From the IMG/VR virus record IMGVR_UViG_3300009285_002434, positions 1 to 29,759 of that record: a stretch of DNA of 29,759 bases. One strand, given 5' to 3'. The notes beneath the pieces were generated by a model. That model worked only from the letters and a program-made list of their open reading frames with translations, had not been told where the DNA came from and ran no database searches. Shown here one piece after another: positions 13,759 through 29,759 of this stretch (positions within the stretch are counted from its first letter, which is position 1; each line of letters starts with the position of its first letter). Both the position numbers and the translations under genes were made by a program. The stretch is from a virus.

Positions 13759-14188
13759 CGTCCCAGAGGCCAAAACTGACCCCGCGCTGAAAGCGTTGGT
13801 GCGGGAGTTTTCCGAGGCGGTGAAAACCCTGCGGGGCATGAAACCGCCGAAAGCGGATGCCCACGCGACGATGATGATGAAGTCGCAAGACCGCCTCCTG
13901 GCCTCGATTGAGCGGATGCTGGCGGTCGTCGGGAAGCTGGCGAAGCAGAAGCCCGAACCGGCGCACGACTTCACGGGGATGAAGACGTTGTTTTCCGGCA
14001 TTGCCAACGACCTCAAGGACGCGATGAAATCGGCCTACAAACCGTCTTCAGTCCGTCCGAACGTCACGGTGAAACCGCAAGTGACGGTCTCCTTGGGCGG
14101 GTTGGAAAAGAAGTTTGACCGCCTCGAAACCGCGATGCGGGAGAGCGGTGCGCGGGGACGCAACCGCACCTTTGGGTCAAACTTCTGA
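13739..14188 (+). CDS. 149-aa helical protein with basic tail
   Basis: The start lies inside the end of the previous gene. The centre is helical with repeated hydrophobic spacing (LVREFSEAVKTLRG, LLASIERMLAVVGKLAKQ), and the C-terminal part has a short beta element (VTVKPQVTVSLGG) followed by a helix and Arg/Gly tail. It has no Cys and no signal peptide. It may be a minor virion or assembly protein. The stop shares a base with the next ATG (TGATG). Confidence 0.55.
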   Translation: MPVVTVNVPEAKTDPALKALVREFSEAVKTLRGMKPPKADAHATMMMKSQDRLLASIERMLAVVGKLAKQKPEPAHDFTGMKTLFSGIANDLKDAMKSAYKPSSVRPNVTVKPQVTVSLGGLEKKFDRLETAMRESGARGRNRTFGSNF

Positions 14189-14496
14189 TGTGGGTGGTCG
14201 TGTTCTTGCTCTTCGCGCAGAACGCCTGGGCAGGGAACTTTCCTGGCGAGCAACCCGTCTATGGCCGCGACCAAGGGCGCACCACGCTGCTCTTTTATGT
14301 CGCAGCGGGAAACGGGGCGGGGAAAGTCGAATACATCTGCACCGCCGATGCGGGGACGGCGAGTTCCTCGGCGCGGTGGCAAATCTCTCGCCTGACCTAT
14401 GACAGCAGCGACCGCGTGTCCGAGATTGAATGGGCAGGGTCAACAGACAATTTTACGAACATTTGCGATAACCGTGCCAGCCTGACGTTCAACTGA
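14188..14496 (+). CDS. Exported virion-type domain protein
   Basis: The first 15 residues (MWVVVFLLFAQNAWA) are a short but clear signal peptide with an AWA-type cleavage site. The rest matches a small domain common in tailed-phage structural genes, 'KVEYIxxAxxGT...WQIxRLTYDS...I-W-A-G...F-x-x-I-x-D-N-R-A-S-L'. Here the positions after EYI and NI are Cys (CTADA, CDNRA), the only two in the mature protein, which could form a disulfide after export. Known family members are usually not exported. Role in the virion is unknown. Confidence 0.7.
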   Translation: MWVVVFLLFAQNAWAGNFPGEQPVYGRDQGRTTLLFYVAAGNGAGKVEYICTADAGTASSSARWQISRLTYDSSDRVSEIEWAGSTDNFTNICDNRASLTFN

Positions 14497-14612
14497 TGCC
14501 TGCGAACAAGAATTGGAACGCGCAGCAAACACGCACGCAACCCAAGTTTGAGGGACGACCAGCCTTCATGGTCAACAAGAAAAAGACCAAGAAAAAGAAA
14601 CAGTCGTACTAG
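14496..14612 (+). CDS. 38-aa Lys-rich micro-protein
   Basis: TGATG overlap with the previous gene; ends at TAG 14612. The C-terminus is KKKTKKKKQSY, strongly basic. It is the last gene before the strong terminator at 14659. It may bind DNA or RNA. Its reality rests on the overlap and on the lack of any gap in this gene series. Confidence 0.5.
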   Translation: MPANKNWNAQQTRTQPKFEGRPAFMVNKKKTKKKKQSY

Positions 14613-14617
14613 TTTGT

Positions 14618-14645
14618 AGGGTTTCGGCTCGCTACCGAAATCCCC
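14618..14645 (+). other. RNA hairpin upstream of terminator
   Basis: GGGTTTCGG pairs with CCGAAATCCC (one bulged base) around a 7-nt loop. It sits just before an outer pairing CCAACGA (14644-14650) with TCGTTGG (14698-14704) that would enclose the terminator. This could be an antitermination or processing signal. Confidence 0.45.
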
Positions 14646-14658
14646 AACGAGGTTTGAG

Positions 14659-14698
14659 AGCGGCTATTGGGAGCCCAATCTCCTGATAGCCGCTTTTT
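14659..14698 (+). terminator. Strong intrinsic terminator within the structural region
   Basis: AGCGGCTAT (14659-14667) pairs with ATAGCCGCT (14686-14694); the stem continues inward through two wobble pairs to GGAG/CTCC, about 15 bp, with loop CCCAAT, followed by five T. It separates the terminase/portal gene block from scaffold and capsid. No clear promoter is visible in 14699-14778. Confidence 0.88.
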
Positions 14699-14778
14699 CG
14701 TTGGTGTTCAGCGACGGACGCACCCGCCCCCTCGTCCAGGGCATGACGTAGCCGACCTCGTCACGGCAAGGAGGCACC

Positions 14779-15654
14779 ATGCCAGTCGAAGACGAGGCCC
14801 AGCGTGAGACCTTCGGGGACGCCCCCGGCTGGTCGGATCGAGAAACCACGACGGAGCCTCAAAAGAAGGGTGTAGCGGGAGCCTCGCCCACTCCAGACGC
14901 AGAACCCGCCCCGTCAGCGGAACCCTCTCAGGATGAGGGGTCATCGGTCGAACCGGCACCGGAGCAGGCACCTCCGACACCAAGCCAGCCGGAACCCGCC
15001 GATGTGCCGTTCAACCAGCATCCACGGTGGATTGAGCGGCAACGGGAATTGGAAGAGGCTCGGCGACAGCGGGATGAGGCCATGCGCCTCGCGCAAGAGG
15101 CGGTCTCGCGTCCTGTCCAAGCCGTTCAGCCGTCGGCTCCGCAGGTTGACCCGTGGGAGCGGTTGGTCAACGACCCCGACCCCGTGACCGCGCAGGGATG
15201 GAGAAATCTCCAGTCCCTTATGCAACACGAGCGGCGTCAAGCGAAGCTGGAGGCGGTGCAAGAACTCCAGCCCGTGATTCAAGCGGGCATGGAGAAGTTG
15301 GCGCAATTTGACCTGCGGGACTTCCGCAAGGAGAACCCCGACATCAAGCCGGGGTCGGCGGACGAGCAGCAGATTGTGTCCTACATGAACGGACAGGTGG
15401 ACGGGGTGCGGCACCCCTTGGAAAGCGCAAAGCGCAATGTGCTCTTTGACCGGCTGAAAACCGAAGTCACTTCCCTGAAAACGAAACAGGCCGCGATTCC
15501 CCAGAAACGGGCCGCGGCGTCCTCAGAGTCCTCGGCGGGCATCCCTGCCGGGGCGGGACTGCCCCCGAAACCCGGCGATTGGCGCGAACGCGCTGGCGCG
15601 GTGGTGGATAAGGGGGGTTCCATGATGGACGCGGCGAAAGCCATTTTTGGGTGA
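14779..15654 (+). CDS. Probable scaffolding protein
   Basis: GGCAAGGAGGCACC gives a strong start at 14779. The 291-aa protein has an acidic, Pro/Glu-rich N-terminal third, a long charged coiled coil near residues 85-110 (ERQRELEEARRQRDEAMRLA), and a helical C-terminal part (ELQPVIQAGMEKLAQFDLRD). No Cys is present. Composition, size and the place directly before the major capsid gene are those of a head scaffold. It would line the inside of the procapsid and leave or be cleaved before packaging. No protease gene is seen nearby. Confidence 0.75.
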   Translation: MPVEDEAQRETFGDAPGWSDRETTTEPQKKGVAGASPTPDAEPAPSAEPSQDEGSSVEPAPEQAPPTPSQPEPADVPFNQHPRWIERQRELEEARRQRDEAMRLAQEAVSRPVQAVQPSAPQVDPWERLVNDPDPVTAQGWRNLQSLMQHERRQAKLEAVQELQPVIQAGMEKLAQFDLRDFRKENPDIKPGSADEQQIVSYMNGQVDGVRHPLESAKRNVLFDRLKTEVTSLKTKQAAIPQKRAAASSESSAGIPAGAGLPPKPGDWRERAGAVVDKGGSMMDAAKAIFG

Positions 15655-15677
15655 CACGGCATACCTAGGAAGACGCG

Positions 15678-16628
15678 ATGCCAGCAGGGACAAACTTTGC
15701 GACGGCACAGACATCGCGTACGCAACCGAACTTCGGCGACGAAGTCTTTGACGGAATTTCCAGCAATAACGCGCTCGTCTGGGTGCTCCGTCAACAGGGG
15801 AACATCAAGGTCTCGGACGGGGGGCGCACCTTTACCCACCCGTTGCACTTCGCCTTGAACTCCTCGTTTGCGGCGCGCAATCACGACGCCACCATTCCGA
15901 CCCCCGACCCGCAGACCCACACGCACTCGGAATGGAATGTTCGCACGATTAGCGGGTCGATTACGCTCTACAAGCTCCACCAGGCGATGAACCAGGGCAA
16001 GGCGGTTATCCTGAAGTACCTGGAGGAGAAGCGGCAGTCGTCCACGGTCTCCGTGACGGAGATTTTGGGCGACGAGCTCGTGGATGGCTCCGGCACGGCC
16101 CCCTCGTGGGACTCGCTGGAAACCATCATTTCCGGCACCAACACGACCACCGTGGGCGGGATTGCGGGCTCGGATGCCACGTGGCAGAACTATTCGGCGG
16201 CCACGGGTGGGGCGTTTAACACAAGCAACAACGGCATTACCGCGTGGGATGCGGCTGTCCGAGGCACCACGTTCGGCAACCAAAGCCCCACGGTCGTCCT
16301 GACCACCTCGGCGGTGTTCGGGCTCTATTACATCAGCCAAGCAGGAGCCATCCGTTACTACAACGAGCAGTTGGCCGACGCCCACTTCGAGCACTTGAAC
16401 TTCGGGCGGCGACCGGTCTTGTGGGACGACAACATTGACGCCGGGTTGACCTACTTCGTCAACACGCGAAGCCTGTGGCTTCAGGTGTTGCGGCAGGGCA
16501 ACCTCGTGACGACGGAGTTCGAGCCTGCCGTCACACAGTTGTCGAACGTGGCGCTGATGTATCTCTTTGGCAACCTGACGACCGGCAACCGACGCACGCA
16601 AGGCGTCGTGACCGGCCAAACCAGCTAA
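15678..16628 (+). CDS. Major capsid protein (HK97-type)
   Basis: The 316-aa protein has the features of a common podovirus/siphovirus capsid family: the N-arm (FDGISSNNALVWVLRQQGNI), an early 'GGRTFTHPLHFALN' element, the helix-rich middle (LYKLHQAMNQGKAVILKYLEE), 'SPTVVLTTSAVFGLYY' near residue 210, and the C-terminal ending VALMYLFGNLTTGNRRTQGV. These fit the HK97 fold. There is no Cys and no delta domain or protease nearby. It is the main shell protein and follows the scaffold. The large minus-strand frame across it is a codon shadow. Confidence 0.85.
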   Translation: MPAGTNFATAQTSRTQPNFGDEVFDGISSNNALVWVLRQQGNIKVSDGGRTFTHPLHFALNSSFAARNHDATIPTPDPQTHTHSEWNVRTISGSITLYKLHQAMNQGKAVILKYLEEKRQSSTVSVTEILGDELVDGSGTAPSWDSLETIISGTNTTTVGGIAGSDATWQNYSAATGGAFNTSNNGITAWDAAVRGTTFGNQSPTVVLTTSAVFGLYYISQAGAIRYYNEQLADAHFEHLNFGRRPVLWDDNIDAGLTYFVNTRSLWLQVLRQGNLVTTEFEPAVTQLSNVALMYLFGNLTTGNRRTQGVVTGQTS

Positions 16629-16640
16629 GAGGAGATGACG

Positions 16641-17153
16641 ATGCAGAAACTTCTTTTCGCACTCGCCCTCCTTTTGGCAGGGAGTGGCGTCGCCTTCGCG
16701 GACAGCATCCCGACCGTGGTGGATGCGCAGGCGGGGGGTGGACGGAACGTCTGGACGATGACGGTGTTCAACGACTCCGGCGAAACGATTCAGTCGGGGG
16801 AAATTGCTGTATGGGATCAAGCGGATTCAGACGTAGAAGATGGTGGGCTTCCGTATGTCACCCTTGCTGCGGTGAATTCCAGTCCCTATACGGCTGGGGT
16901 CATCTTGAACACCTGCGCCAACCAGACGCAGTGTGAAATGGCCGTTATGGGCATTACCAAGGTGCGGTGTCTGGACTCGTCTGCCGCAGTTACGGAAGGC
17001 GACTTGGTTGGCACCACGAGCTTTGATGCAGGCTTGTGTGGCGACCATACCGCCGGGGCAGACAACCGAGCCGTTGGGATTGCCTTGGAAGCTGGGAACA
17101 CGACCGATTATGAGTATATCGACGTGTTCGTTTACCCAGGCGACGGGCAGTAA
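16641..17153 (+). CDS. Exported decoration-like capsid protein
   Basis: ATG 16641 is used because AAGAGGAG lies at good spacing; ATG 16635 touches that site. The N-terminus MQKLLFALALLLAGSGVAFA is a textbook signal peptide. The mature part has the beta-rich 'V-T-E-G-D-L-V-G-T-T-S ... R-A-V-G-I-A-L-E-A-G' ending found in DUF2190-like capsid decoration proteins. Four Cys (TCANQTQC, RCLDSS, LCGDH) are in the mature part. Location right after the capsid gene supports a head decoration role. Export is unexpected for such a protein. Confidence 0.7.
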   Translation: MQKLLFALALLLAGSGVAFADSIPTVVDAQAGGGRNVWTMTVFNDSGETIQSGEIAVWDQADSDVEDGGLPYVTLAAVNSSPYTAGVILNTCANQTQCEMAVMGITKVRCLDSSAAVTEGDLVGTTSFDAGLCGDHTAGADNRAVGIALEAGNTTDYEYIDVFVYPGDGQ

Positions 17154-17157
17154 GTGA

Positions 17158-18339
17158 ATGCGATGGCGGCAGGCGGGCTGGGGGCTCTTCCTGGCTGGCC
17201 TGCCGCTGTCGCCTCTTTTAATCGGGCCGTTGACCGGCCACAAGATTGATTTATGGCACAGTCAAGCATGGTGGACGCACCTCTGGCTCATTCTCCTCGT
17301 GGGGATGTCGCTCTCATCGGGGACGTGTCAGGTTGTCCGCAATCTGCCCCTAGCGTGCTGGACGGTCTGGATGGGGGGCTGGTGGGCGGTGTCGTTTCTC
17401 CGCTCCATCATGTCGTCCCAGGGCTACGACCTAGCCCAGATGCTGGGAATCCTGCACCTCGCAACGGGATTGGTTGCGTACCTTCTTGCGACCCAAGTGA
17501 CCCGCGAGGAGTGGCCGACCATCCTCCGATGGGTGGCACGAACGGGCGTCGTGTTGAGCGTGTATGGGCTCTTGCAGGCGGCAGGCTTTGAGCAGTTTTT
17601 CACGGATATCATTCATCATGCGAAGAACCGCCGGGTCTTGGGGACGATTGGCAACCCCTCCCACTACGCGGCGTACCTGTCATGCGTCCTGCCCTGTGTA
17701 TTAGGACAGTCCGGCAGACAGTGGAAGGTTGGCGCGGGTCTTGTGCTGACGGCGATTGTCGTCAGCCGGTCGTTGGGCGGCATGGTGGCGGCGGCCCTCG
17801 TCCTGCTGGTGTGGTGGTGGTGCCGCAACCGAAAACTCTTTTGGTGGGGGCTGGCGGGTATCGGCGGGTTGGCAGGGCTTCAGTACGCCGTGGATGTGTG
17901 GGGCTTACAGCATGGGCACAGCACCCCGGTCTTTAGCATGAGCGGACGGCTCTTGCGGTGGGGGCTGTTTCTCGACCTCTTTCGTGAGCGGCTGATTACC
18001 GGCTCCGGCCCAGGAGCGATTTTGGCGCTCTCACAAACGATACCCAATGATGAAAAGCACCCGTTATACCACTGGCGGCATTGTCATAACGAGTATCTGC
18101 AACTGCTTATCGAGCAGGGCGTGGTGGGCTTGGCTGCGGTGGGGTGGATGCTGACGGACTGGTGGCGTAAGGCGTGGGCGTTTCGATATGACCGCACCGC
18201 GCTCATGTTGACCTTAGTCGGAGTCGCCTTTCTCTGCAACGCGGTCTACAACTTTCCCGCCCATTTGTGGATCATGGCCTCGTTGGGGCTGGTGGCCTAC
18301 GGGGGCATCTATGGATATTGGAGTGAACGGACGGCATAA
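17158..18339 (+). CDS. O-antigen ligase/polymerase homologue (Wzy_C)
   Basis: The 393-aa protein has around ten hydrophobic membrane segments and the WaaL/Wzy_C signature: GTIGNPSHYAAYL (about 162-174), SGRLLRW (262-268), TGSGPG (281-286) and HCHNEYLQLLIEQGVVGL (308-325), with the conserved HNEYLQ on the large periplasmic loop. Such enzymes join or polymerise O-antigen at the periplasmic face. The gene is sandwiched with no gap between the decoration gene (4 bases before) and the adaptor (its TAA is directly followed by the next ATG). So it is a settled member of the virion operon rather than a loose insertion. It likely alters host LPS, for superinfection exclusion or to release progeny. Confidence 0.82.
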   Translation: MRWRQAGWGLFLAGLPLSPLLIGPLTGHKIDLWHSQAWWTHLWLILLVGMSLSSGTCQVVRNLPLACWTVWMGGWWAVSFLRSIMSSQGYDLAQMLGILHLATGLVAYLLATQVTREEWPTILRWVARTGVVLSVYGLLQAAGFEQFFTDIIHHAKNRRVLGTIGNPSHYAAYLSCVLPCVLGQSGRQWKVGAGLVLTAIVVSRSLGGMVAAALVLLVWWWCRNRKLFWWGLAGIGGLAGLQYAVDVWGLQHGHSTPVFSMSGRLLRWGLFLDLFRERLITGSGPGAILALSQTIPNDEKHPLYHWRHCHNEYLQLLIEQGVVGLAAVGWMLTDWWRKAWAFRYDRTALMLTLVGVAFLCNAVYNFPAHLWIMASLGLVAYGGIYGYWSERTA

Positions 18340-19332
18340 ATGGCAGCCCTGACGACCCTCAAGCAACTGCGAGACCACGTCGCCTCCACGGTGCGTGAGA
18401 CGCAAATTAGCGACTTGATTGATGCGTACATCAACCAAACCGCCCTCGACCTCTGGCTCTTTCATCCGTGGACATTTCGGCGCAAGCGCCTGACGTTTGC
18501 GACAGTCCTTGACCAAGAATTTTACAATCTCGACTCCGAGATTGACGAGATCGCGGTCTTACGGCAAATCTCCACCCCCGTCCGGCTCATCTACATTCCC
18601 GATTCATTGTTCTACAAGACCGTCCCGAACCCGGAAGACCAGGGCAGCGGGGTGCCGCGCTACTACCGCCGGTGGGAAGAAACGGGGTTTGGGACGAACC
18701 TTGCCGCCGCCGATACCGTCTATGTCAGCTCCTCCTCCACCTCGGACGGTTCCTCGTTTACGGTGCGGATTCGAGGACGCAATTCCAGCGGGGAAGTCAT
18801 CGAGGAAACCTTGACCCTCAATGGGACGACCTCGGTGACGAGCACAACGACGTGGGCGGCAGATGGGTTGTTTCAAATCTCCAAGTCTGGCACAACCACC
18901 GGCACCGTGACTTGTTACCGCACGACCGGGGCCACCGTCCTGGCGGAGATGGAGCCGAACAATCTTGCCCCCCGGTTTATCCGCATCGGGCTATTTCCCA
19001 TCCCCTCCTCGGCGGTGACGATGTATCTGGAATACTACGAGCGGTTCCGCTATCTCGTCCACAACACCGATGTCCCCCAGATGGATCACAAATGGAACGG
19101 GGTGCTGTTGGAAGGCACGTTGGCAAAGGCGTGGGAATACAAGCAAAGCGCCTCGCTCTCGACCCAACACTTGACGATGTACGAAGCGGGCAAGGTGCGG
19201 ATGCGGATGCAGGATGAACGGAACATGGACTATATCCCGGTCTTGGAGCGCCGGGTGCGGATGCGCCCGATGGTGCGCCGGTACAGCGATTCCGTGAGCG
19301 ACAACTTCCCGGTCTATGGCGTGGGGTACTAG
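18340..19332 (+). CDS. Head-to-tail adaptor with inserted Ig-like domain
   Basis: The N-terminus (LRDHVASTVRETQISDLIDAYINQTALDLWLFHPW) and the C-terminal part (VTMYLEYYERFRYLVHNTDVPQ, KAWEYKQSASLSTQHL) match podovirus adaptor proteins of the P22 gp4-like kind. Between residues of about 125 and 195 a beta-rich segment (FTVRIRGRNSSGEVIEETL, then a Ser/Thr-rich strand series) looks like an inserted Ig-like domain, of the type that often decorates phage virions. There is one Cys and no signal peptide. It would sit between portal and hub. It overlaps the hub gene by 17 bases. Confidence 0.65.
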   Translation: MAALTTLKQLRDHVASTVRETQISDLIDAYINQTALDLWLFHPWTFRRKRLTFATVLDQEFYNLDSEIDEIAVLRQISTPVRLIYIPDSLFYKTVPNPEDQGSGVPRYYRRWEETGFGTNLAAADTVYVSSSSTSDGSSFTVRIRGRNSSGEVIEETLTLNGTTSVTSTTTWAADGLFQISKSGTTTGTVTCYRTTGATVLAEMEPNNLAPRFIRIGLFPIPSSAVTMYLEYYERFRYLVHNTDVPQMDHKWNGVLLEGTLAKAWEYKQSASLSTQHLTMYEAGKVRMRMQDERNMDYIPVLERRVRMRPMVRRYSDSVSDNFPVYGVGY

Positions 19333-21172
19333 ATGCCTGGTCGCGCTACTGTTGGTAGCGACGCCGGTTTGGGCGCAGGACGAGTGGCAAACCTACCCGG
19401 CCACGGGCGGGGTCGTGCCGTTTCTCGGCTTGGACGATTCCTCCGCTCCCACCCAAGTCCAAGACGGACGCGCCCAAGACCTCCAGAACGTCGTACTCTC
19501 TGCCTCCCGCGACCTGCGGCAACGCTACGGTTCCAGCCGGGTCGGGCTGACGCTCGACATCGCGGGGGAAGACCCGCAAGCCGTCACGGGGCTCTACTAC
19601 ACGAAGTTCTCGGACGGTACCGAGCGGATTCTTGGCACGATTTCCAGCCGCTTCGTGCGGCTCTCCGGCTCGACCTGGGTGTCGAATACCGCGTCGGGGG
19701 CGGTGGCGATTACGGGCGGGCAGAACAATCAATTCGTCTTTACGACCGCCTTCGACAACGTAATTCTCACCAACGATGTCAACCCCCCCATCCGCTACAC
19801 GTCAGACAACAAATATACCGCCTGGGAGTTTGGGGGGTTGGGGACGGATACGCCTACAGCAGTCAAGGTTGTGGCCTTCTTCAAGAATTATCTCCTCGTC
19901 GCCAACACGGTGGAGAACAGTGTCGAGCATCCCACCCGCATCCGGTGGTCGAATGTGGGGGAGGTCAACGTCTGGACAGAGGACGACCGGGTCGATATTG
20001 CGGCCTTAGGCGGGCAAGAAATCAACTGTGTGGGGGAACTCTACGACAACCTCTACATCGGGTTGACCGATTCGGTCTACAAAGTCTCCTTGGTGGGGGG
20101 GGACGGGGTCTTTCAGATCAGCAAGGTGACGGACGATATCGGGTGTATTGCCAAAAACTCCGTGCAGTCCATTACGCTGACCAACGCCCAGAACGGGCTC
20201 ATCTTTCTCGACAAGGACAAGCGTATCTACTTCTTCAACGGGATTGTGGCGCAGGACGTGTCCGCACTCATCGAAACGACGATGACCGGCTTATCGGGGT
20301 CGCGGCTGCAATATGCAGTCAGTACGGATACCAACAGCGATTACCTGTTGTGCATAACAGACGCGACGGGGTCGGGCAACAATCTCTGCCTCGACTTAGA
20401 GTACGAATTGGGCGAATGGACGAAGCACGTCAACATCAACGCCAACGCGATGGCACACGTCTTGGACAGCAACGCCCAAGACCAGGTGTATTGGGGCAGC
20501 GACAAGGCGTTTGTCTATCAGTACGAGGACGCCGACCTGCGGGACGATGTGGGCTCGGCCACGGGGACGGTCAGCAACGTCGGGACGTACTCGACCCCCT
20601 TTCAAGCATCGGCCTCCATCCTTTATCTCACCTCCGGCTCCACGGCAATGGTGTCAGGAGAGTTGGCGGGAGCGCCGTTGGAACTGACCAGCGGGACGGG
20701 ATCGGGGCAGACGAATACCGTCATCTACAACACCACCTCCGGCCTCGTCGTGTCGGATGCGTGGGCAACGACCCCCGATGCGACGACCGTGCTGGAAGTC
20801 GGCGCGATCGACAGTTTCTACACGACGAAGTGGTACGACTTCGGCGAACCCGTCCGGCTCAAGCACTTCGGGGAAACGTACTTGTGGGGCGATGCGGATA
20901 TTCCCTCGACCCACTCGATTGCCTACGCCAACGATTTTTCCAGCGATGTGGAAACCGTGGTGGTGGCACAGTCCGCATCTGCGACATCTTCGGCTTGGGG
21001 CTCGGCGGTGTGGGGGGTGTCGCTGTGGGGGGATGTCGATGCGATTTTCCGGCAAGTCAAGGTGTCGGGGCAGGGGCGGTTTCACCGGTTGAAGTTCTCA
21101 GAAGATGACCCTGGACAGACGTTTCGTTGGTTTGGCTGGACTCCTTTGTATCGCGCTGGGGAGCGCAACTAA
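19316..21172 (+). CDS. Exported beta-propeller-like tail hub
   Basis: Starts at ATG 19316, inside the adaptor gene. Residues of about 1-20 (GTRCLVALLLVATPVWAQ) form a signal peptide with a VWA cleavage site. The mature part (618 aa in total) reads as repeated blades with 'DGRAQDLQNVVLSASRDLRQ', 'YDNLYIGLTDSVYKVSL', 'NGLIFLDKDKRIYFFNG' and 'VYWGSDKAFVYQYEDAD', in the style of P22 gp10-like hub/stabilisation proteins. Four Cys lie in the mature part (INCVGE, IGCIAKN, LLCITD, NNLCLDL). The signal peptide on a tail hub is unusual. It overlaps the next gene by 68 bases. Confidence 0.62.
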   Translation: MAWGTRCLVALLLVATPVWAQDEWQTYPATGGVVPFLGLDDSSAPTQVQDGRAQDLQNVVLSASRDLRQRYGSSRVGLTLDIAGEDPQAVTGLYYTKFSDGTERILGTISSRFVRLSGSTWVSNTASGAVAITGGQNNQFVFTTAFDNVILTNDVNPPIRYTSDNKYTAWEFGGLGTDTPTAVKVVAFFKNYLLVANTVENSVEHPTRIRWSNVGEVNVWTEDDRVDIAALGGQEINCVGELYDNLYIGLTDSVYKVSLVGGDGVFQISKVTDDIGCIAKNSVQSITLTNAQNGLIFLDKDKRIYFFNGIVAQDVSALIETTMTGLSGSRLQYAVSTDTNSDYLLCITDATGSGNNLCLDLEYELGEWTKHVNINANAMAHVLDSNAQDQVYWGSDKAFVYQYEDADLRDDVGSATGTVSNVGTYSTPFQASASILYLTSGSTAMVSGELAGAPLELTSGTGSGQTNTVIYNTTSGLVVSDAWATTPDATTVLEVGAIDSFYTTKWYDFGEPVRLKHFGETYLWGDADIPSTHSIAYANDFSSDVETVVVAQSASATSSAWGSAVWGVSLWGDVDAIFRQVKVSGQGRFHRLKFSEDDPGQTFRWFGWTPLYRAGERN

Positions 21173-21440
21173 TGTCGGCGCGTATCGGCCCGAACAGCCG
21201 GATACCTTTACCGACCTCGCGGACAGCAACCAACTCTCGAAGCTGAACAATGTCTTGCAGCAATTCTTCAACGTCACCAACGGACGCTACACGGTGGATG
21301 TCACAACGACCGACCCCGACGGGTCGCGGCGGTGTACGAAAGGAGAGCTGATTCTCTATGATCCTGGCGCGTCGGAGGAACTGTGCGTGTGTGTGGATGA
21401 AGCGACTAGTAATTGGGATTGCGCTCTTTTGTCTGACTGA
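21105..21440 (+). CDS. Exported Cys-rich tail protein
   Basis: ATG 21105 lies 68 bases inside the hub gene, so the signal peptide (FVGLAGLLCIALGSATNVGA) is read from DNA that also encodes the hub C-terminus. The mature part has a short helix (LADSNQLSKLNNVLQQFFN), then beta strands, and four Cys in the last third (RRCTKGE, ELCVCVDE, DCALL). The 'G-x-L-x-L-Y-D...C-V-C...W' end resembles small fibre or tail domains. Function unknown. It overlaps the next gene by 44 bases. Confidence 0.6.
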   Translation: MTLDRRFVGLAGLLCIALGSATNVGAYRPEQPDTFTDLADSNQLSKLNNVLQQFFNVTNGRYTVDVTTTDPDGSRRCTKGELILYDPGASEELCVCVDEATSNWDCALLSD

Positions 21441-22251
21441 CCCCGCGTGGGCGGCTTGTCCGTCGCGGTCGTTCACCTACACCGCAGGGCAAGCGATTGA
21501 ACCTGCGGAAGTGACGACCAACGAGCAGAACGCCTACGACTACCTCTGTGCAGGGGTGGATACCTACAAGAGCAACTCCATTACGTCAGCTACGCTCCAA
21601 GACGGGGCGGTCACGTCGGCCAAGTTGGGGACAGGCGCGGTGACGACCACCGTAATTCTTGACAATACGATTACGACCACCGACCTTAACGCGACCCTCA
21701 CGCTGAGTGACGCAGATTACCTCGACCTCTCGGCCATCCTGCATGACGATACGGCGCTTCAGGGGTTGCGGTTGCCGCAAATCGGCGCCACGCCTTCGAG
21801 CCCGACGAGTGGCGAAGGGCAGATCGGGTGGGATGAAACGAACAATATGCTGGAAGTCTACAACGGTACGAGTTGGGCGAATGTGAGTCCTGACCCCCTC
21901 ACCCTCACGACCGCTGGCCCCGCCACCCCCGTCGCCAACACCCTCTATACCGATAACATCGTCAAGGGGTGGTGCTACTTTGTGGATGGAGGCACCGCCG
22001 CCATTACCGATGACTTCAACGTGGCGAGCATTGCCGATAACGGGACGGGCGATTACACGATTACCTGGGAAACGGATTTGGCGAATGCGAACTATGCCGT
22101 GGCGGGGACGGCCACCGACGCCACCACTCCCGACTTTATCTTAGTCGAAATCTCCCGTACCGCAGGGACGACACGGGTGGGGGTGTCGAACAGCGGGGGG
22201 ACGGCGGTGGATGCGGCAGGCGGGGCGTCGGTTCTTGTGATAGGAGACTGA
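21397..22251 (+). CDS. Exported tail-fibre-like protein
   Basis: ATG 21397 gives a signal peptide (KRLVIGIALFCLTDPAWA) followed by AACPS; a lipobox is just conceivable but Trp at -3 is atypical. The mature part has fibre-type repeats (SATLQDGAVTSAKLGTGAV, TTTDLNATLTLSD), then 'SSPTSGEGQIGWDETNNMLE' and a C-terminal beta domain with LVEISRTAGTTRVGVSNSGG. This is the layout of tail fibres and capsid fibres. Three Cys are in the mature part. The frame upstream of 21397 is the shadow of the previous gene. It may contact the host surface. Confidence 0.65.
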   Translation: MKRLVIGIALFCLTDPAWAACPSRSFTYTAGQAIEPAEVTTNEQNAYDYLCAGVDTYKSNSITSATLQDGAVTSAKLGTGAVTTTVILDNTITTTDLNATLTLSDADYLDLSAILHDDTALQGLRLPQIGATPSSPTSGEGQIGWDETNNMLEVYNGTSWANVSPDPLTLTTAGPATPVANTLYTDNIVKGWCYFVDGGTAAITDDFNVASIADNGTGDYTITWETDLANANYAVAGTATDATTPDFILVEISRTAGTTRVGVSNSGGTAVDAAGGASVLVIGD

Positions 22252-22252
22252 A

Positions 22253-22648
22253 ATGCGCTACCTCTGGATGTGCTTGCTAGTCGGGATGGGCACGGCATCT
22301 GCCGACCCCGTAACGGTGTGTGCAACCTCACAGGGGACTGTGACTGTCATCTCTCTCAGTCCCCGACCAGGACGACCAGGCGAAACCTTTGAGCAGACGG
22401 CGGCGCGTCGTCTCGCGGACACCTTAGCTGGTCGTGCGGACATTGACCCCGCCGACTGCGTGGCAATGGATGATACGACACTCCCGACGACGAGGCGTGA
22501 GGCGTGGAAACTCCAAGGCAAGCGCGTGGTGATTGACCCGACCGTCCCCGACCCGCAGAACGCGAAAGACGCCACAGAAGCGCGGGTGAAGGCGGCGTTG
22601 GGACTCACCGATAGCGAACTAGCGGATTTGAAGGATGCTCTGCGTTAA
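22253..22648 (+). CDS. Exported 131-aa protein with two cysteines
   Basis: GGAGACTGAA precedes ATG 22253, and the start follows the fibre stop by one base. The N-terminus (MRYLWMCLLVGMGTASA) is a signal peptide with ASA cleavage. The mature part has Cys at VTVCATS and ADCVAMD, a possible disulfide, and a charged helical C-terminus (ALGLTDSELADLKDALR). It is a likely minor virion or assembly factor; no family is recognised. The last 14 bases overlap the next gene. Confidence 0.6.
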   Translation: MRYLWMCLLVGMGTASADPVTVCATSQGTVTVISLSPRPGRPGETFEQTAARRLADTLAGRADIDPADCVAMDDTTLPTTRREAWKLQGKRVVIDPTVPDPQNAKDATEARVKAALGLTDSELADLKDALR

Positions 22649-22952
22649 GCGGGATGCTACGGGACGGCTTGAAGCGGCGATGGAAGTCCGTTTGGTGGAT
22701 GAGAGCGGGCACCTCGACCCCCAGGGACAATGGGCGTGGGTGGAGCAGGTAGAACTGAATCCTGGCGTGAATGCCCGCGAGGTCTTTCGTTACTTCATGG
22801 TTTATGGGGCGCAGTGGTTGCCTACGGCGATATGGTGTTATTGGCTTCGGAAAGGGAAAACCGGCCAGCGGATTCACGGGCCGTTTTCCCGTCAACGGAT
22901 TGAACAGAACTTGGTGAAAGGGGGGAGGCGCGATGTGGTCATGGCTAGTTAG
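22635..22952 (+). CDS. 105-aa protein, unknown
   Basis: Starts inside the end of the exported gene. The protein has no signal peptide; it has an alpha/beta look (AMEVRLVDESGHLD, VEQVELNPGVNAREVFRYF) and an aromatic centre (WLPTAIWCYWLRKGKTGQ). It could be a tail-assembly or host-contact accessory. The end overlaps the next gene by 20 bases. Confidence 0.5.
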   Translation: MLCVKRDATGRLEAAMEVRLVDESGHLDPQGQWAWVEQVELNPGVNAREVFRYFMVYGAQWLPTAIWCYWLRKGKTGQRIHGPFSRQRIEQNLVKGGRRDVVMAS

Positions 22953-23631
22953 GGTGGGGAATTGGGTGGCGGATGAGGTGTGTTGGGTGCTCGCGGATGA
23001 AACGGGCGGTGGCAGCCAGCCCCAACCCCCCCAAGTCATCCCCGCGCCTGCGGCCCCCGATTACGGGGAAACAGCGGGGGATGTGGCGAAGGCGCGGTTG
23101 GAGTACGACCCCCAACTCACCAAACAGCAGTACGATTTATCCGCGCAGTACGGCCCCCTCTACAAAGCCCTCACGGAACAAATGTTTCCGCAACTGCCCA
23201 TCTTCTCGCAACAGGTCATGCAACAGCTCCAATCCCCGTCAGGATTGACGCCCGAACAGCAAGCGGCCCAAGATGCGATTCGTGGACGGGCGTTTCAGCA
23301 ATCCGAACGGGGGATTCGCACCGCCGCGAATCTGGGCGGGGGGCTGTTTAGCGGCAACCGCGAACTCCAAGAGAATCGCTCCCGCAACGAGATGGCGCAA
23401 TCCTTTGCCAATCAAGACATTGCTCTCAACGACGCGCGGCGACGCTCGACCGTGGGCGACCTCCAAACCCTCTTGCAGTTGGCGTTTCCGAACGTCCAGA
23501 ACTCTACGATTGGGGGGAGCCCTGATGCGTTGTATAACGCGCTCGTTGCCAATCAAGGAAACTATACGGTCACTAGTGGAATCCCAGGGACGCCAGGATT
23601 CTTGTCGAGTTTGGCGGGAGCCTTCCGATAA
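22933..23631 (+). CDS. Probable DNA-ejection/internal virion protein A
   Basis: The 232-aa protein starts with an amphipathic, Trp-rich helix (MWSWLVRVGNWVADEV) that could insert in a membrane, then a Pro/Gln-rich linker and a long helical part (LTPEQQAAQDAIRGRAFQQS ... GGGLFSGNREL). These features, the Gln/Ala-rich helices and the position after the hub and fibre genes fit podovirus ejection proteins. A single Cys is in the N-terminal helix. It would leave the head with DNA to form a channel. No lytic transglycosylase motif is seen. Confidence 0.55.
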   Translation: MWSWLVRVGNWVADEVCWVLADETGGGSQPQPPQVIPAPAAPDYGETAGDVAKARLEYDPQLTKQQYDLSAQYGPLYKALTEQMFPQLPIFSQQVMQQLQSPSGLTPEQQAAQDAIRGRAFQQSERGIRTAANLGGGLFSGNRELQENRSRNEMAQSFANQDIALNDARRRSTVGDLQTLLQLAFPNVQNSTIGGSPDALYNALVANQGNYTVTSGIPGTPGFLSSLAGAFR

Positions 23632-23960
23632 TGCTTCCTTTTCAATCGCTGATGGGACAAGGGAACCAATTTGATCCAGGGGGACAAACGGCACTGTTAC
23701 AGGCTCTCCTCCAACAACTACGAGCCCAGCAACCACAGTGGACACCACAGTGGCGACCCCCCACCCCCGCTCCATCACCACAGATGTCCGTGACGCAATT
23801 ACCAATTCCGCGAGGGCCGCGTTTGATTCAGCAGCCACCGCCCCTTCCAGGGCAAGCGATTGATGAGGCTGGCCGGGAAGCCTGGAACTGGGTCAAGGAG
23901 AATCCTGAAGTGGTTTCAGCCCTCACCGCGATGTTGTCGGGCATTCCCGCGCCTGGATAA
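23631..23960 (+). CDS. 109-aa Pro/Gln-rich protein
   Basis: Starts with the previous stop overlap (TAATG). The N-terminal part is Gln/Leu-rich (ALLQALLQQLRAQQPQW), the middle is Pro-rich with WTPQW/PPTPAP text, and the end has a short helix (EAWNWVKENPEVVSALTAML). No Cys and no signal peptide. It is likely an internal virion or assembly protein, in the ejection module. No family is recognised. Confidence 0.55.
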   Translation: MLPFQSLMGQGNQFDPGGQTALLQALLQQLRAQQPQWTPQWRPPTPAPSPQMSVTQLPIPRGPRLIQQPPPLPGQAIDEAGREAWNWVKENPEVVSALTAMLSGIPAPG

Positions 23961-23969
23961 GGAGAACCC

Positions 23970-24848
23970 ATGCCTACGGTAATTGATACCTCACACTTAA
24001 CGCCACGTCAAAACATTGGGGAGGCGTTAGGCACCTTGAGCGGGGCGGGTTTGAAGATGCTCTTGAAGCTCTTTCTTGAAGGGAAGATCGGCCAAGTGCC
24101 CACAGGGAAATCAACTCTGCAACTTCCCGGCGGAGCTAAAGCGACCCCAGGGCCAGGACTACAATCCCAATTAGACGCAGGACAGCTCCCAGCCTTAACT
24201 CAAGCAGGACAGTTTCCTCAAGGGACGACGGCCAGCCCCCAAACGCGGTTGGGGATTCTCCCTGATCTCTCTCGGCCACTCCAGCAAGCGCAGTTGACCC
24301 AAGCCAACCAGAGCATCGCCAACGCTCCTCTCGAAGCCGAAAAGTTGAGAGAAGACGTTCAGCGTTTGAAGTCGCAATCCGATTTAGAATCTCAGAAGTT
24401 CAACTTTGAGATTCGCAAGACTGCCGTGGAAAACGCCTCTAGGGTTTTACAGGAAGGGGTCATTAAGCCCGAACAGTACGAAGACTTTTTGGCAAAGAAT
24501 GAAAAGTACCTACGGAGTAAGGCGGGAGAAGTTTCTGCCGAGGTCGCTTCTCCAGAACTGAACCAGAGCCGCGTGCGGTCGTTCAATGCGTTAAGTGATG
24601 AAGCGAAACGCAATTTCCTTTCTCAGGCGAGAACGACCAATGATGTGGAAACGCTGGCCTTTCTGGAAGCGAATAAAGACCAACTCGGTCTTCCTGCAAG
24701 CGCCCGCGCTGGGGGGCAATCCCTCTCAGGACTCCCGCAGCGGCTTATGTTGCGGGCGCTCTTAGCACCATTTAGTCCCGTTCAGACCCCGATGGAGCAA
24801 GCTGCACCACAGCTACCAGACCTCTTGAGGTTATTGCGGGGGCAATAA
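23970..24848 (+). CDS. Probable internal virion protein B
   Basis: AAGGAGAACCC precedes ATG 23970. The 292-aa protein has an N-terminal hydrophobic patch (LSGAGLKMLLKLFLEG), a Gln/Pro/Thr-rich linker, then a long coiled coil near residues 115-160 (LEAEKLREDVQRLKSQSDLE) and a helical end. No Cys. The layout is close to other podovirus ejection proteins and it lies just before the 887-aa protein. It is AT-richer than the head genes, as is the next gene. Confidence 0.55.
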   Translation: MPTVIDTSHLTPRQNIGEALGTLSGAGLKMLLKLFLEGKIGQVPTGKSTLQLPGGAKATPGPGLQSQLDAGQLPALTQAGQFPQGTTASPQTRLGILPDLSRPLQQAQLTQANQSIANAPLEAEKLREDVQRLKSQSDLESQKFNFEIRKTAVENASRVLQEGVIKPEQYEDFLAKNEKYLRSKAGEVSAEVASPELNQSRVRSFNALSDEAKRNFLSQARTTNDVETLAFLEANKDQLGLPASARAGGQSLSGLPQRLMLRALLAPFSPVQTPMEQAAPQLPDLLRLLRGQ

Positions 24849-24851
24849 TCT

Positions 24852-27515
24852 ATGTCGTTGTTGGACGAACTTGACCAGCAGACCACTCCAAGTTTGCTCA
24901 ACCAACTTGACCAACCCGCGTCCTTACTCTCCCAGCTTGACCAGCGCGACATTGAAGAAGCGAAGAAGTCTAATTTCCAGCGGGTATTAGAGCAAGTCAA
25001 CCGCACGGGCTACGGCGGGGTCAATCTGGTGCGGAACGCCGTGCAGTCCGTCCAAGGACGAGCTTCTTTCGATCCTGTTCAAGCGTTTACACGCGGAGCG
25101 TCCCTGAAAGATACGCCCACCTTTGGGGAAGTGCTGACGAAGGATTTGGGGTTTAACGATTTCCTCACGTCTGTTGGTGTCCAACCCTCATCCACGACAG
25201 GACGTGTTGCGACGGGCGTCTTGGGGTTTGCTGGGGACGTGCTCGCTGACCCGCTGACCTATGTGCCCGCAGGGGTGTTTGTAAAGATTGCGCAAGGCGC
25301 TGGGCGGGCGATGGGAGTGGCGCGGGGTGTTAAAGCCTTGGCGCAGACCGAAATGGCACAACAGGCGGGTCGGGCACTTATCCCTGGGTTTGGGCTCAAA
25401 CAGGCCGGATTTGGGAGGTTATACGAAGAGTCTTTGCACTATCAGGGATTACTCCAGAAGCGTCAAGCCGATGTTATCCAAGACACGCTTGACTTGGCAA
25501 AGGGTTTTTCGCCGCAAGAGGCATCAACCATCCGTCGCATTTTGGATGAACCTGGGTTTCTGACGGAAGGAGTCGAACCAAAATTGGTGGAAACCGCTGA
25601 GAAGATGCGGGAGAAGTTCGCCGCCTTTGCCGATATAGAACAGCAAGCAGGGATTCTGCCGCGTATTCGGGAGTTTTATTTTCCGCACATCCGCAAGGAC
25701 GTAGAGCAGACGATTGGTTCCGCGACGACCGCCCTACGAAAGATCACCCCTGGATTTGCGAAACCCCGGACGATTGAGGAGAGCATTACCTCGGTCAACC
25801 ATGCCCTCGCCCGCGAGTTCTTCGAGGAAAACGCCTTTAAGGGGCTGGGGATTCGTGGATTAGCCCACGCCCGCGCTGTTACCGCGAATGAGTTTTTGAC
25901 CAAAACGCTAACCGAATATGGCCGTCCGGCCAAACTAGGGGATTCGGTTTTATCGGGAGAGGGCGTGTATGTTGCCCGCGATCTGTTTAAGCGGGCTCCA
26001 GAGCAATTCTTGAAGCAGAACCTCCAAGCCTTATCGAGCGGAAATGAACTCGTTGAAATCGGAACAGAGGCCGCCCAGCACCTTATCGGTTCGACGAAGG
26101 GGGCCGAGGTCTGGGTCTTGCCGAAAGAAATCGCAGACCACCTTAATACCTTCCGCAAGACCGTCCAGAATCAAGGCGAAATGCGGACGTTTCTCAAGGG
26201 GTATGACGGGGTACTGAATCTCTGGAAAGGGTATCAGACGGGGGCGAATCTCGCCTTTCATAGTCGCAATGCCATTTCTAACTATTGGTTGAATTATCTC
26301 CGACACGGTGCCAAAGCGTTTGACCCCGCAGCCAATCATCGGGCGCTGGGGGTGTTGTTGGCAAATAGTGACGCCGTGCGTGAGAAGCTCCCTCTCTTCG
26401 CACAGCGATTAGAACAGTCCGTTATCCAAACTCCAAACGGGCCGCTCTCCTACAAACAAGTGTTTGGCCTCATGCAGGAGTATGGGATTGCGGGACGTGG
26501 GTGGGTGGGGACGGATATTCCCATGCTCATCGACCAGCAACTGTCCGTCGGCTTGGCGGGGACGGCGAAGAAGCTCTTAACGCGGATGAATCCTGCGTCG
26601 CAGCACAACGCCCTCTTGACCATGGGACGGGCTGTCGGGCAAAACGTGGAGAATCACGCACGGGCGTTGAGCTTTCTCTTGGGGTTGGAACGGGGTGAAG
26701 ATGTCGTGACCGCCGCCATGCAAACCCGCAAGTACCTATTTGACTATGCCGAACTCACAGGCTTTGAGAAGCAGGTCATGAAGCGGATTGTCCCCTTCTA
26801 TACCTGGATGCGGAAGAACATTCCGCTCCAGTTTGAACAGATGCTTCGCCAGCCCTCCAAATACACGACGTTGACCAAGGCCGAGGGGGAAATTGAGCGC
26901 GGGGTGCGTCAACCCACCGAGATGCCTGATTGGGTGCGGGCAAGTGTCCCGATTTTCGTTGGAGAAACTCCTGACCATAAAGCATTGGCGTTTTCCCTGC
27001 GGTCGTATATTCCTGCCGCCGACATTGAATCCATCATTGGGGGTTCGACCCCGCTAGGTAGCCAACGTGTGCCAGAAATCATCCGCACCCTCCTAACTAG
27101 TGTTTCCCCCCTGATTCGAGAGCCTGTCGAACAGGCGGTGAATTACGATACGTTCTTTAACCGTCCGATTGAATATTTCCCTGGGGAACGGAGAACTGTT
27201 CTAGGACAGAGCGTTCCGAATCGCCTTGCCCGACTGATTCCACGCCCAGCCCAAGATGTGTCTCGATTGGTAGGAGACCAAGGTCGTGAATCGCAGTCAG
27301 GTTCGTTGCCATTTCCTGCGCGGGCGGCTCGTTTTGTGACTGGTGGGAGATTGACAGCGGTAGATGAAGACCGGCAACGTAAGCGGAGCAAGTTTGAACG
27401 CGACCGACTGGAGCGCCAAGCGAAGTTTAGTCTTAAGCTGGCGCGGCAACACGGGGATACGGCAAATATCGAAGCTGCCGAACGCGCCTTGACGCGGATA
27501 CGAGAGTCTCGTTAG
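24852..27515 (+). CDS. Large internal virion/ejection-type protein, 887 aa
   Basis: The N-terminus repeats LLxxLDQ three times (SLLDELDQQ, SLLNQLDQP, SLLSQLDQR) within 35 residues. Later segments have amphipathic helices, a region GYQTGANLAFHSRNAISNYW near residues 458-477 and FEKQVMKRIVPFYTWMRKNI near 638-657, text shared with very large phage proteins packaged in the head or ejected. No lysozyme or transglycosylase motif was found. There is no Cys in 887 residues. It is likely the main ejection protein, forming part of the conduit through the cell envelope. The C-terminus is basic. It overlaps a minus-strand micro-gene by four bases. Confidence 0.65.
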   Translation: MSLLDELDQQTTPSLLNQLDQPASLLSQLDQRDIEEAKKSNFQRVLEQVNRTGYGGVNLVRNAVQSVQGRASFDPVQAFTRGASLKDTPTFGEVLTKDLGFNDFLTSVGVQPSSTTGRVATGVLGFAGDVLADPLTYVPAGVFVKIAQGAGRAMGVARGVKALAQTEMAQQAGRALIPGFGLKQAGFGRLYEESLHYQGLLQKRQADVIQDTLDLAKGFSPQEASTIRRILDEPGFLTEGVEPKLVETAEKMREKFAAFADIEQQAGILPRIREFYFPHIRKDVEQTIGSATTALRKITPGFAKPRTIEESITSVNHALAREFFEENAFKGLGIRGLAHARAVTANEFLTKTLTEYGRPAKLGDSVLSGEGVYVARDLFKRAPEQFLKQNLQALSSGNELVEIGTEAAQHLIGSTKGAEVWVLPKEIADHLNTFRKTVQNQGEMRTFLKGYDGVLNLWKGYQTGANLAFHSRNAISNYWLNYLRHGAKAFDPAANHRALGVLLANSDAVREKLPLFAQRLEQSVIQTPNGPLSYKQVFGLMQEYGIAGRGWVGTDIPMLIDQQLSVGLAGTAKKLLTRMNPASQHNALLTMGRAVGQNVENHARALSFLLGLERGEDVVTAAMQTRKYLFDYAELTGFEKQVMKRIVPFYTWMRKNIPLQFEQMLRQPSKYTTLTKAEGEIERGVRQPTEMPDWVRASVPIFVGETPDHKALAFSLRSYIPAADIESIIGGSTPLGSQRVPEIIRTLLTSVSPLIREPVEQAVNYDTFFNRPIEYFPGERRTVLGQSVPNRLARLIPRPAQDVSRLVGDQGRESQSGSLPFPARAARFVTGGRLTAVDEDRQRKRSKFERDRLERQAKFSLKLARQHGDTANIEAAERALTRIRESR

Positions 27516-27649
27516 TAATCATGTTCAGACCACGAGGCGTTGCGCGGGTCGTTGCCTAACGGCCATTGCCATCCGCCCGTTTGGATGGCGAACCAAAAAA
27601 TGAATAGCATCACAATGGCTGTGAACGTGTTAATCGCAAACTGTTTCAT
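27512..27649 (-). CDS. 45-aa single-pass membrane protein on opposite strand
   Basis: Read directly from the minus strand: AAGGGAGAC precedes ATG 27649 at good spacing. The peptide has one membrane helix (FTAIVMLFIFWFAI, about residues 9-22) followed by QTGGWQWPLGN and a polar tail. It is the only minus-strand gene in the late region and lies beside the lysin, so a holin, antiholin or lysis regulator is plausible. Its stop overlaps the end of the 887-aa gene. No clear promoter is seen upstream; the hairpin GCCATCC/GGATGGC inside it has no U-run. Confidence 0.55.
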   Translation of the reverse strand: MKQFAINTFTAIVMLFIFWFAIQTGGWQWPLGNDPRNASWSEHDY

Positions 27650-27666
27650 GTCTCCCTTGTACCCCT

Positions 27667-27837
27667 ATGCCTGAGCAAAAGCAAGCAAAATCGCTCCCCC
27701 CCGACATCGTGGCCCGCATTATCCTGGGCGAAGCGGCGGGGGAGGGGCCAGCCGGGATGATGTTTGTGCGGGATGTGCTCGCCAACCGCGCCAAAACGCA
27801 GAAGAAAACCCTCGAAGAAGTGGGCCAGCCGGGATGA
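27667..27837 (+). pseudogene. SleB-like cell-wall hydrolase, N-terminal part (split by duplication)
   Basis: The 56-aa frame has IVARIILGEAAGEG, the Hydrolase_2/SleB catalytic helix with the active-site Glu near residue 22, and then VRDVLANRAK as in the family. It stops at 27837 because a 77-bp tandem duplication shifts the frame. Removing one copy joins it to 27834-28169 and gives a normal 141-aa enzyme that would cleave peptidoglycan glycan strands. The start has no good ribosome binding site. As drawn, the product would lack the C-terminal half of the fold. An assembly error is possible. Confidence 0.7.
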
Positions 27838-27898
27838 TGTTTGTGCGGGATGTGCTCGCCAACCGCGCCAAAACGCAGAAGAAAACCCTCGAAGAAGT
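27745..27898. repeat. Perfect 77-bp tandem duplication
   Basis: 27745-27821 and 27822-27898 are identical, beginning GGGCCAGCCGGG and ending GAAGAAGT. Seventy-seven is not a multiple of three, so it breaks the hydrolase frame. Confidence 0.95.
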
Positions 27899-28169
27899 TG
27901 CGACGGCTCCGAAGCAGTTTAGCGCCTATTCCCGTCCCGACCTCGAAGCCTTTTATTCCCGCCAGCCAGCAATCCTCCGCAACTTGGCGAATGCATTGGT
28001 CGCGGAAGCGCGCCGTCCCGACTTTGTGCCTCAGTATGAAGGCATTGAGCACTTTGAAAATATCCGTAACTGGGAACGCCGACACGAACTTCCGGACACG
28101 CATTGGTTCAACCGCATGGAAGAAGTGGGACGGGTGGGAAACCATGTGGCGCTACGCCCTCGCCGTTAG
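27834..28169 (+). CDS. SleB-like cell-wall hydrolase, C-terminal part
   Basis: ATG 27834 overlaps the stop of the first part (ATGA), so ribosomes could restart and make a 111-aa protein. It carries the family's downstream text (VATAPKQFSAYSRPD, then NLANALVAEARR and HWFNRMEEVGRVGNH) but not the catalytic Glu. Active only if joined to the N-terminal part by loss of one repeat copy. It could otherwise be a non-catalytic partner. The 3' end overlaps the signal peptide of the next gene by 26 bases. Confidence 0.7.
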   Translation: MMFVRDVLANRAKTQKKTLEEVATAPKQFSAYSRPDLEAFYSRQPAILRNLANALVAEARRPDFVPQYEGIEHFENIRNWERRHELPDTHWFNRMEEVGRVGNHVALRPRR

Positions 28170-29759
28170 CTTCCTTGTGTCGGGGGTGGCCTTCGCGGAC
28201 AACACCCTCGAAGTCAACCCTGTCACCAAAAAATTAGACCTTGTACTGGATAACTCGTCTGCGGGGGTAATTACTGGCATTACCGCCACCTTCACGGGGT
28301 ACGACTGTACCCTTAATTCAAACGGGGGAGCCTTGACGACCGACAGCGCAGGCAACCTCCGCTGTTCGGATGACGACACGGGCGGGGGCGGCGGCAACTC
28401 CTTTGAAACCATCGCCGTGCCTGCCGGAGCCAGTGTCGTGGCCGATTCCTCCACCGACACCCTCACGCTCACCGAGACAACCTTCCTGACATTTACGGGG
28501 ACGGCTGCGACGGATACCATTGACATCACTCAGGTTACGACGGACATCGGGACGGACGGATTGATTGCCGCCAATGCCGTCGCCCTCGGCACCGACACGA
28601 CCAACGCCTATGTCGCCGATCTTGCTGCTGGAACGTACATCGATGTGTCCGGCGGGGGGGCGGAAACCGCCACGGTCACCGTCACCCATGACCCGACGGA
28701 GATGGAAGCCGTCACGTTTGGGGCGGGCGGGAACGCCTCGAACGTCTGGACGAACAACCTCTCTGGCACTGACCCGACGCTGACGTGGGGGAGCGCCTTG
28801 GTGACGATCGGCGGGGCGCTCCCGTCCACCGGCACCATCACGGGCGTGGCAGGGACTTTCAGCGGCCTCTTGACAGGCAACGCCCACCTGCAAGTCGGCA
28901 ACGGGGCCACGACCGCAGGCATCATCGCCATCCGCGAAGACACCGATGCGGGGACGAATGAGGCGACGTTCACGGTGCCTGCGTTGGTGGCCGATACGGA
29001 CTATACCTTGCCTGCCGATGATGGGACGGATGCCACCACCGAACTCCTGACGACCAACGGCGCGGGGACGCTCGATTGGATTACCTGTGCGATACTGACC
29101 GGCTCAGCGGACTTGTGCGATGGCACGGATGCGACGGGGGCGGGCGGGGGCGACCCGGTCTTGGTCAATACGACGGCGGTGGCAGATGCTGCCGGAGTGG
29201 ATATCACCGACGGCGATCTTGATTGGACGCTCAATGCCGGGGTGTCGCCGGACACCTTGACGGCCACGGTGGCCTGTACAGGCTGTGTGGATGCAACCGA
29301 CCTGGCCTCCGCGAGTGTCGCCGCCGCCGAGTTGGCGTCGGGGGCGCTTCCTCCGCGCGTGATTTGGATTCCCTGCGCGGCGATGCTTCCTCTCGAAGCG
29401 GCGGATAGTATCCCGCCGTTGACTAAAGATGCGGGCACCAATATTGACCAACTCGCGTGTTCATTCGATGCGGCCGTCGATGAAGGCCGCACCGGAAACT
29501 TTCTGGTGAATGGACGGATTGAGGCGGGGTCAACCGTGACCTTTACCGTCGTCTGGTATTCCCTGGCCGCGACGACCGGCGCTGCGGTGTGGAACATCCG
29601 GCATAACTCTGGCACCGCCGCTGACGTAGACCCCGATGTGGCGTTGACCACGCTCACGGCCACCGACACGACCGCAGGCACGGCCGGCCAAGTGAGCCAA
29701 ACGGCGATTACGGAAACACAAACCAACCTCGCGTGGGTGTCTGGTGATTTGGTCTACCT
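28144..29759 (+). CDS. Exported large tail fibre/receptor-binding protein, 3' end outside window
   Basis: The frame is open from ATG 28144 to the window end (538 codons visible) and so has no stop here. The first 18 residues (MWRYALAVSFLVSGVAFA) are a signal peptide. Then follow DNTLEVNPVTKKLDLVLDN, a Gly-rich linker (DDTGGGGGN), many Thr/Asp/Ala beta repeats, and near the end a domain starting VIWIPCAAMLPLEAADS with DAGTNIDQLACSFD and TVTFTVVWYSLA, which resembles the 'IPAGAM...VTFxxxW' head domain of phage fibres. Eight Cys are visible in the mature part. A receptor-binding role is likely. The minus-strand open frames across it are shadows. Confidence 0.72.
   Translation, partial: MWRYALAVSFLVSGVAFADNTLEVNPVTKKLDLVLDNSSAGVITGITATFTGYDCTLNSNGGALTTDSAGNLRCSDDDTGGGGGNSFETIAVPAGASVVADSSTDTLTLTETTFLTFTGTAATDTIDITQVTTDIGTDGLIAANAVALGTDTTNAYVADLAAGTYIDVSGGGAETATVTVTHDPTEMEAVTFGAGGNASNVWTNNLSGTDPTLTWGSALVTIGGALPSTGTITGVAGTFSGLLTGNAHLQVGNGATTAGIIAIREDTDAGTNEATFTVPALVADTDYTLPADDGTDATTELLTTNGAGTLDWITCAILTGSADLCDGTDATGAGGGDPVLVNTTAVADAAGVDITDGDLDWTLNAGVSPDTLTATVACTGCVDATDLASASVAAAELASGALPPRVIWIPCAAMLPLEAADSIPPLTKDAGTNIDQLACSFDAAVDEGRTGNFLVNGRIEAGSTVTFTVVWYSLAATTGAAVWNIRHNSGTAADVDPDVALTTLTATDTTAGTAGQVSQTAITETQTNLAWVSGDLVY

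Follow-up and report, generated by a model that had tools for sequence, protein, structure and literature searches.

The window analysed here is the whole 29,759-base IMG/VR virus record IMGVR_UViG_3300009285_002434. In its structural region, seven genes on the + strand begin with export leaders of the Sec/signal peptidase I type, and their predicted products include a capsid decoration protein, the tail hub and fibre-like proteins. As judged from the sequences, the division between leadered and leaderless proteins is conserved among related contigs and follows the topology of the virion, and export of the outer parts is well supported. It is rather likely that the virions of this clade are assembled in two compartments, with the leadered outer parts maturing in the periplasm and joining cytoplasmic, DNA-filled heads at lysis.

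The leaders were read directly in the sequence and then scored with a rule-based Sec/signal-peptidase predictor. Calibrated on a 50-kb stretch of E. coli K-12, the scorer recovered 12/14 known exported proteins and made false calls on 2/41 others, both borderline (3.31 and 3.36); among the virion proteins of T7 and P22, T7 gp14 was the sole one called, wrongly. The seven window leaders score 4.1-5.0. They lie at 14188-14232 in the gene for a small exported protein (14188-14496; predicted cut between MWVVVFLLFAQNAWA and GNF), 16641-16700 in the decoration gene (16641-17153; MQKLLFALALLLAGSGVAFA and DSI), 19316-19375 in the gene for the tail hub, the head-closure protein (19316-21172; MAWGTRCLVALLLVATPVWA and QDE), 21105-21182 in a gene for a small tail-region protein (21105-21440; VGA and YRP), 21397-21453 in a tail-fibre-like gene (21397-22251; MKRLVIGIALFCLTDPAWA and ACP), 22253-22303 in the gene for a small protein (22253-22648; MRYLWMCLLVGMGTASA and DPV) and 28144-28197 in a fibre-like gene (28144-29759; MWRYALAVSFLVSGVAFA and DNT). 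The sequence-only reading had named these seven leaders with their cleavage motifs, and all were found where it placed them. Each has the n-, h- and c-regions and the small residues at -3 and -1 of signal peptidase I preproteins, and this n-h-c design with AxA-type sites is common to unrelated exported families. The likely start of the decoration gene is 16641, not 16635, because an AGAGGAG ribosome-binding site lies ~6 nucleotides ahead of the second ATG. For the 21105 product the scorer put the cut after residue 21; the family alignment favours the site between VGA and YRP, as the earlier reading had it. The weakest leader is that at 14188, which has no positive charge, and half of its homologues lack a leader. 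The gene at 28144 runs past the window end, and three homologues, in contigs L002, L004 and L005, are leadered. As a separate observation, the genes at 21105 and 21397 begin before the preceding gene has ended (overlaps of 68 and 44 nucleotides), with their leaders thus lying in its 3' end and partly overprinted on it.

Other genes of the region, also on the + strand, encode products in which the scorer detects no leader: the portal (10852-12789; phrog_1216), a scaffold-like protein assigned by position and composition (14779-15654), the major capsid protein (MCP; 15678-16628; phrog_9953), an SU10-type adaptor (18340-19332; PF24175) and five internal/ejection-type or unassigned proteins between 22635 and 27515 (genes at 22635, 22933, 23631, 23970 and 24852). 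This bears out the earlier statement that portal, scaffold, capsid, adaptor and ejection-type proteins are leaderless, and the terminase large subunit (TerL; 8474-10210; phrog_38) can be added to them.

Profiles of the hub and the MCP retrieved ~40 related contigs from IMG/VR, with MCP identity down to 38%. Counted as distinct proteins, and with start-codon choice equally free in exported and control families, leaders were present in 33/33 hubs, 32/32 decoration proteins, 20/20 members of the 21105 family and 22/22 of the 21397 family, or 107/107, against 0/178 in the control families (TerL 0/19, portal 0/28, scaffold 0/33, MCP 0/34, adaptor 0/33, 22635 family 0/15 and 22933 family 0/16). At the sequence level, this is far beyond chance. 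The 22253 family is leadered in 4/4 of these relatives, and the distal fibres of relatives likewise start with leaders. Conservation in relatives had been proposed as a check by the sequence-only reading, and it holds in the ~40 contigs, where the leader design is retained though its sequence drifts: in three of the four families leader identity (24-27%) is below that of the mature start (33-42%), and in the decoration family the order is reversed (44% vs 33%). The same reading held that relatives starting after the leader would tell against export. Such proteins were found only outside the clade, at ~27% identity, or in the small 14188 family.

Two hubs that seemed leaderless exceptions (L024 and L031) both proved to have a leader that seems to begin at ATT after a ribosome-binding site, near 8943 and 4732, respectively; ATT is a rare start codon for an essential virion protein. 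The L003 decoration gene runs into the end of its contig and is not a true exception, and the misses in L016, L006 and L028, which are wrong open frames or secondary hits, were left out of the counts. One contig has two tandem decoration genes, each leadered (L108:703-1623), and in a 39-kb relative a laminin-G/concanavalin-like lectin protein adjoins leadered fibre genes (L040:6041-6748). Two scans of genome contigs for a host found no relative.

That the leadered proteins are outer virion parts, as the earlier reading proposed, is now backed for two of them by independent identification. The 16641 product has no family match of its own. An AlphaFold model built from 32 homologues (predicted local distance difference test, pLDDT, 86.6) matches the phi29 head-fibre base gp8.5 and capsid proteins of HFTV1, Pam3 and TW1 (E 2e-5 to 1e-3), and one homologue has a hit to phrog_122, a head decoration family. 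With this decoration/head-fibre-base fold and a gene adjoining that of the MCP, the model identifies the protein as a capsid decoration protein. The 19316 product belongs to PHROG 3287 and follows the adaptor, as in the tail hubs of short-tailed phages. In PDB 9nwi its family has a match in a phage chain that occurs six times, which is what a hub would show. On these matches, export leaders are found on both a capsid decoration protein and a tail hub. The 21397 product matches PHROG 11355, a tail fibre family.

The cysteines of the small exported families suggest, as a second and independent sign, an oxidising compartment, in the pattern expected from disulfide formation. Of the 32 decoration proteins, the same nine have cysteine in columns 72 and 78, and the same six in two other columns. 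Among the first nine members of the 21105 family, cysteine pairs appear and vanish together. All five leadered members of the 14188 family share one cysteine pair, which none of its five leaderless members has. Even and odd cysteine counts stand at 36:12 in three small exported families versus 14:13 in MCP and 10:12 in portal. These numbers are uncorrected for shared ancestry.

Between the decoration and adaptor genes lies a gene for a polytopic membrane protein of the Wzy_C family (17158-18339, + strand; PF04932, 64.2 bits vs a cut-off of 31.7), similar to WaaL and the O-oligosaccharyltransferases (O-OTases). All 31 homologues match PF04932 at E<=0.01, and a homologue occupies this same position in 37/37 loci, even though identity to the window protein is only 21-37%. 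Across 31 sequences, R264, W268, three glycines and H310 are invariant. A structural model (pLDDT 90.6) has WaaL (7TPG) as its closest PDB fold. A domain above the curated cut-off, polytopic topology and conserved active-site Arg and His place the protein in the Wzy_C/O-antigen ligase superfamily. It shares PF04932, the Arg and His and the WaaL-like fold with WaaL and with PglL, PglS, TfpO and TfpM, and it is unlike them in being phage-borne, inside a virion gene cluster, and without PglL_A or Wzy_C_2. Wzy_C-family enzymes act on the periplasmic face of the membrane. The sequence-only reading missed this gene, which may supply the reason for export. In some relatives a small lipoprotein-like open reading frame lies between the decoration and ligase genes (L029:10512-10712, L032:2580-2849).

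No leader was found in ~100 structural-region proteins of seven outgroup phages with a distant MCP or hub (Bradyrhizobium ppBjS10J-1, Mx9, BroderSalsa, CRP-207, ct52p938, ctMlz233 and BUCT555), nor on the outer parts of T7 and P22. The CRP-207 hub starts MATQWQTFP, at about the predicted cut of the window hub (QDEWQTYP), which fits a history in which an ordinary hub acquired a leader at its N-terminus. The module order is that of P22-, LUZ24- and SU10-type short-tailed phages, and the adaptor (PF24175) and hub (PHROG 3287) families are related to theirs; however, the outer virion proteins of those phages are leaderless, and the outgroup loci sampled yielded no Wzy_C gene. Inoviridae have leadered virion proteins, with a coat inserted by Sec/YidC, routed to the inner membrane or periplasm, and this is a point in common. 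In contrast to the filamentous phages, the window clade makes a double-stranded DNA head, has leaders on outer parts only and shows lytic-looking release; with TerL, portal and MCP present, it does not fit filamentous-type extrusion through the membrane, which uses no terminase, portal or icosahedral capsid.

In two-compartment assembly, TerL, portal, adaptor, scaffold, capsid and ejection proteins would remain in the cytoplasm and give DNA-filled heads. The decoration protein, hub, 21105, 21397 and 22253 products and distal fibres would enter the Sec pathway as preproteins, lose their leaders to signal peptidase I and fold with disulfides in the periplasm. There the phage membrane ligase may put a glycan on at least one exported part, most likely the adjacent decoration protein, and the two sets of parts would lock together once the inner membrane is opened at lysis, much as the sequence-only reading had suggested. 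The leaders and their conservation, the topological rule, the identity of decoration protein and hub, the family and position of the ligase and the cysteine pairs are given by sequence. From these features we infer cleavage in vivo, periplasmic residence, glycosylation, and the joining step with its timing. A cell-wall-hydrolase-like gene, a weak match, ahead of the fibre gene fits lytic release.

Several points weigh against this picture or parts of it. The near-perfect even cysteine counts of a first set weakened in the larger set, and pair co-occurrence was therefore used rather than parity. PglL_A and Wzy_C_2 domains occur in none of the 31 ligase members, which thus do not class with the PglL/PglS O-OTases, and Ser/Thr content was uninformative, with no sign of glycosylation sites. 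Finally, P22-type filled heads require hub-type proteins to retain their DNA; a hub held outside until lysis would therefore call for another plug, perhaps the adaptor.

Glycosylation of protein by the ligase is offered tentatively, as a hypothesis somewhat less likely than not, because WaaL and O-OTases are inseparable by simple sequence analysis (PMC3643930). That same difficulty, together with WaaL as the closest solved fold and the precedent of known phages that alter the host O-antigen (P22 gtrABC), makes it a serious possibility that the enzyme acts instead on host surface polysaccharide, in O-antigen change or superinfection exclusion, with no relation to the exported virion proteins. 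Such a role would touch the glycosylation part only and is compatible with two-compartment assembly. Against it stand the fixed position of the gene between decoration and adaptor and the lack of any hit in the sampled outgroup loci. A profile search also gives a weak match to the oligosaccharyltransferase 9rmk, and one of the 31 members, which is not the window protein, matches the TfpM model (NF058641), again weakly; three members hit an exosortase-linked O-ligase model, and another model, that of IctB, is hit by four. Moreover, the ligase family tends to adjoin the acceptor gene, since target-specific O-OTases such as TfpO, TfpM and PglS are often encoded beside their acceptor (PMC12645811; also PMC3643930). 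The fullest scheme, in which the whole exterior is exported, a phage O-OTase coats it in the periplasm with glycan taken from host lipid-linked carriers, and virions are completed only when lysis merges the compartments, we regard as doubtful.

Two other schemes accept the leaders and differ on where the virion is finished, and both are improbable. Hydrophobic leaders would target the membrane, and the hub has to get to the portal vertex for head closure; the leaders might thus bring outer proteins to the inner membrane, by uncleaved anchors or local passage, where docked heads would receive them during infection and not after lysis. However, canonical short signal-peptidase-I sites are present in every exported family, and the paired cysteines suggest complete translocation. 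Slightly less probable still is a dual pool, with virions built from a cytoplasmic fraction left by inefficient export or made from internal starts, and the exported fraction used elsewhere, for example to prevent superinfection or the reinfection of debris. In 18/33 hubs an in-frame start codon of some kind does lie close to the mature end, but none of those 18 has a ribosome-binding site (0/33 hubs overall); all outer-part families are leadered, not receptor binders only, and the 39-kb relative showed no second hub copy. It is very improbable that the leaders are an artefact of mis-called starts, or virion arms whose N-termini are hydrophobic by chance: the hub and 21105 starts lack ribosome-binding sites, and the scorer makes false calls on ~5% of E. 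coli proteins and on T7 gp14, but wrong start codons as the source of leaders are ruled out by the relatives and by 107/107 versus 0/178 under the same start freedom, and the shared n-h-c design with AxA-type sites and the co-occurrence of leader and cysteine pair in the 14188 family argue the same way.

Two further features of the window concern its integrity and gene content. The cell-wall-hydrolase-like gene (27667-28169, + strand; a weak PF07486 match, under the cut-off) has its frame broken by an exact 77-bp tandem duplication at 27745-27898, just upstream of the 28144 fibre gene; the L002 homologue has no such break, and the duplication may be real or an assembly error. An N6/N4 DNA methylase gene or fragment (PF01555) lies at 2405-2998.

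Tailed-phage virions are taken as completed in the cytoplasm, and leaders on virion proteins are known from filamentous phages. Searches of open-access papers gave no description of a tailed phage whose decoration, hub and fibres are exported, and the RcGTA, LUZ24-like and SU10 papers describe no such exported outer parts. A clade with secreted decoration, hub and fibres would be evidence that the final steps of assembly can move to another compartment. Export would explain how disulfides or host glycans could get onto the phage surface, and it would raise the question of how unplugged heads hold their DNA. A ligase gene linked to leadered genes for hub, decoration and fibres is a simple signature by which more such phages can be found.

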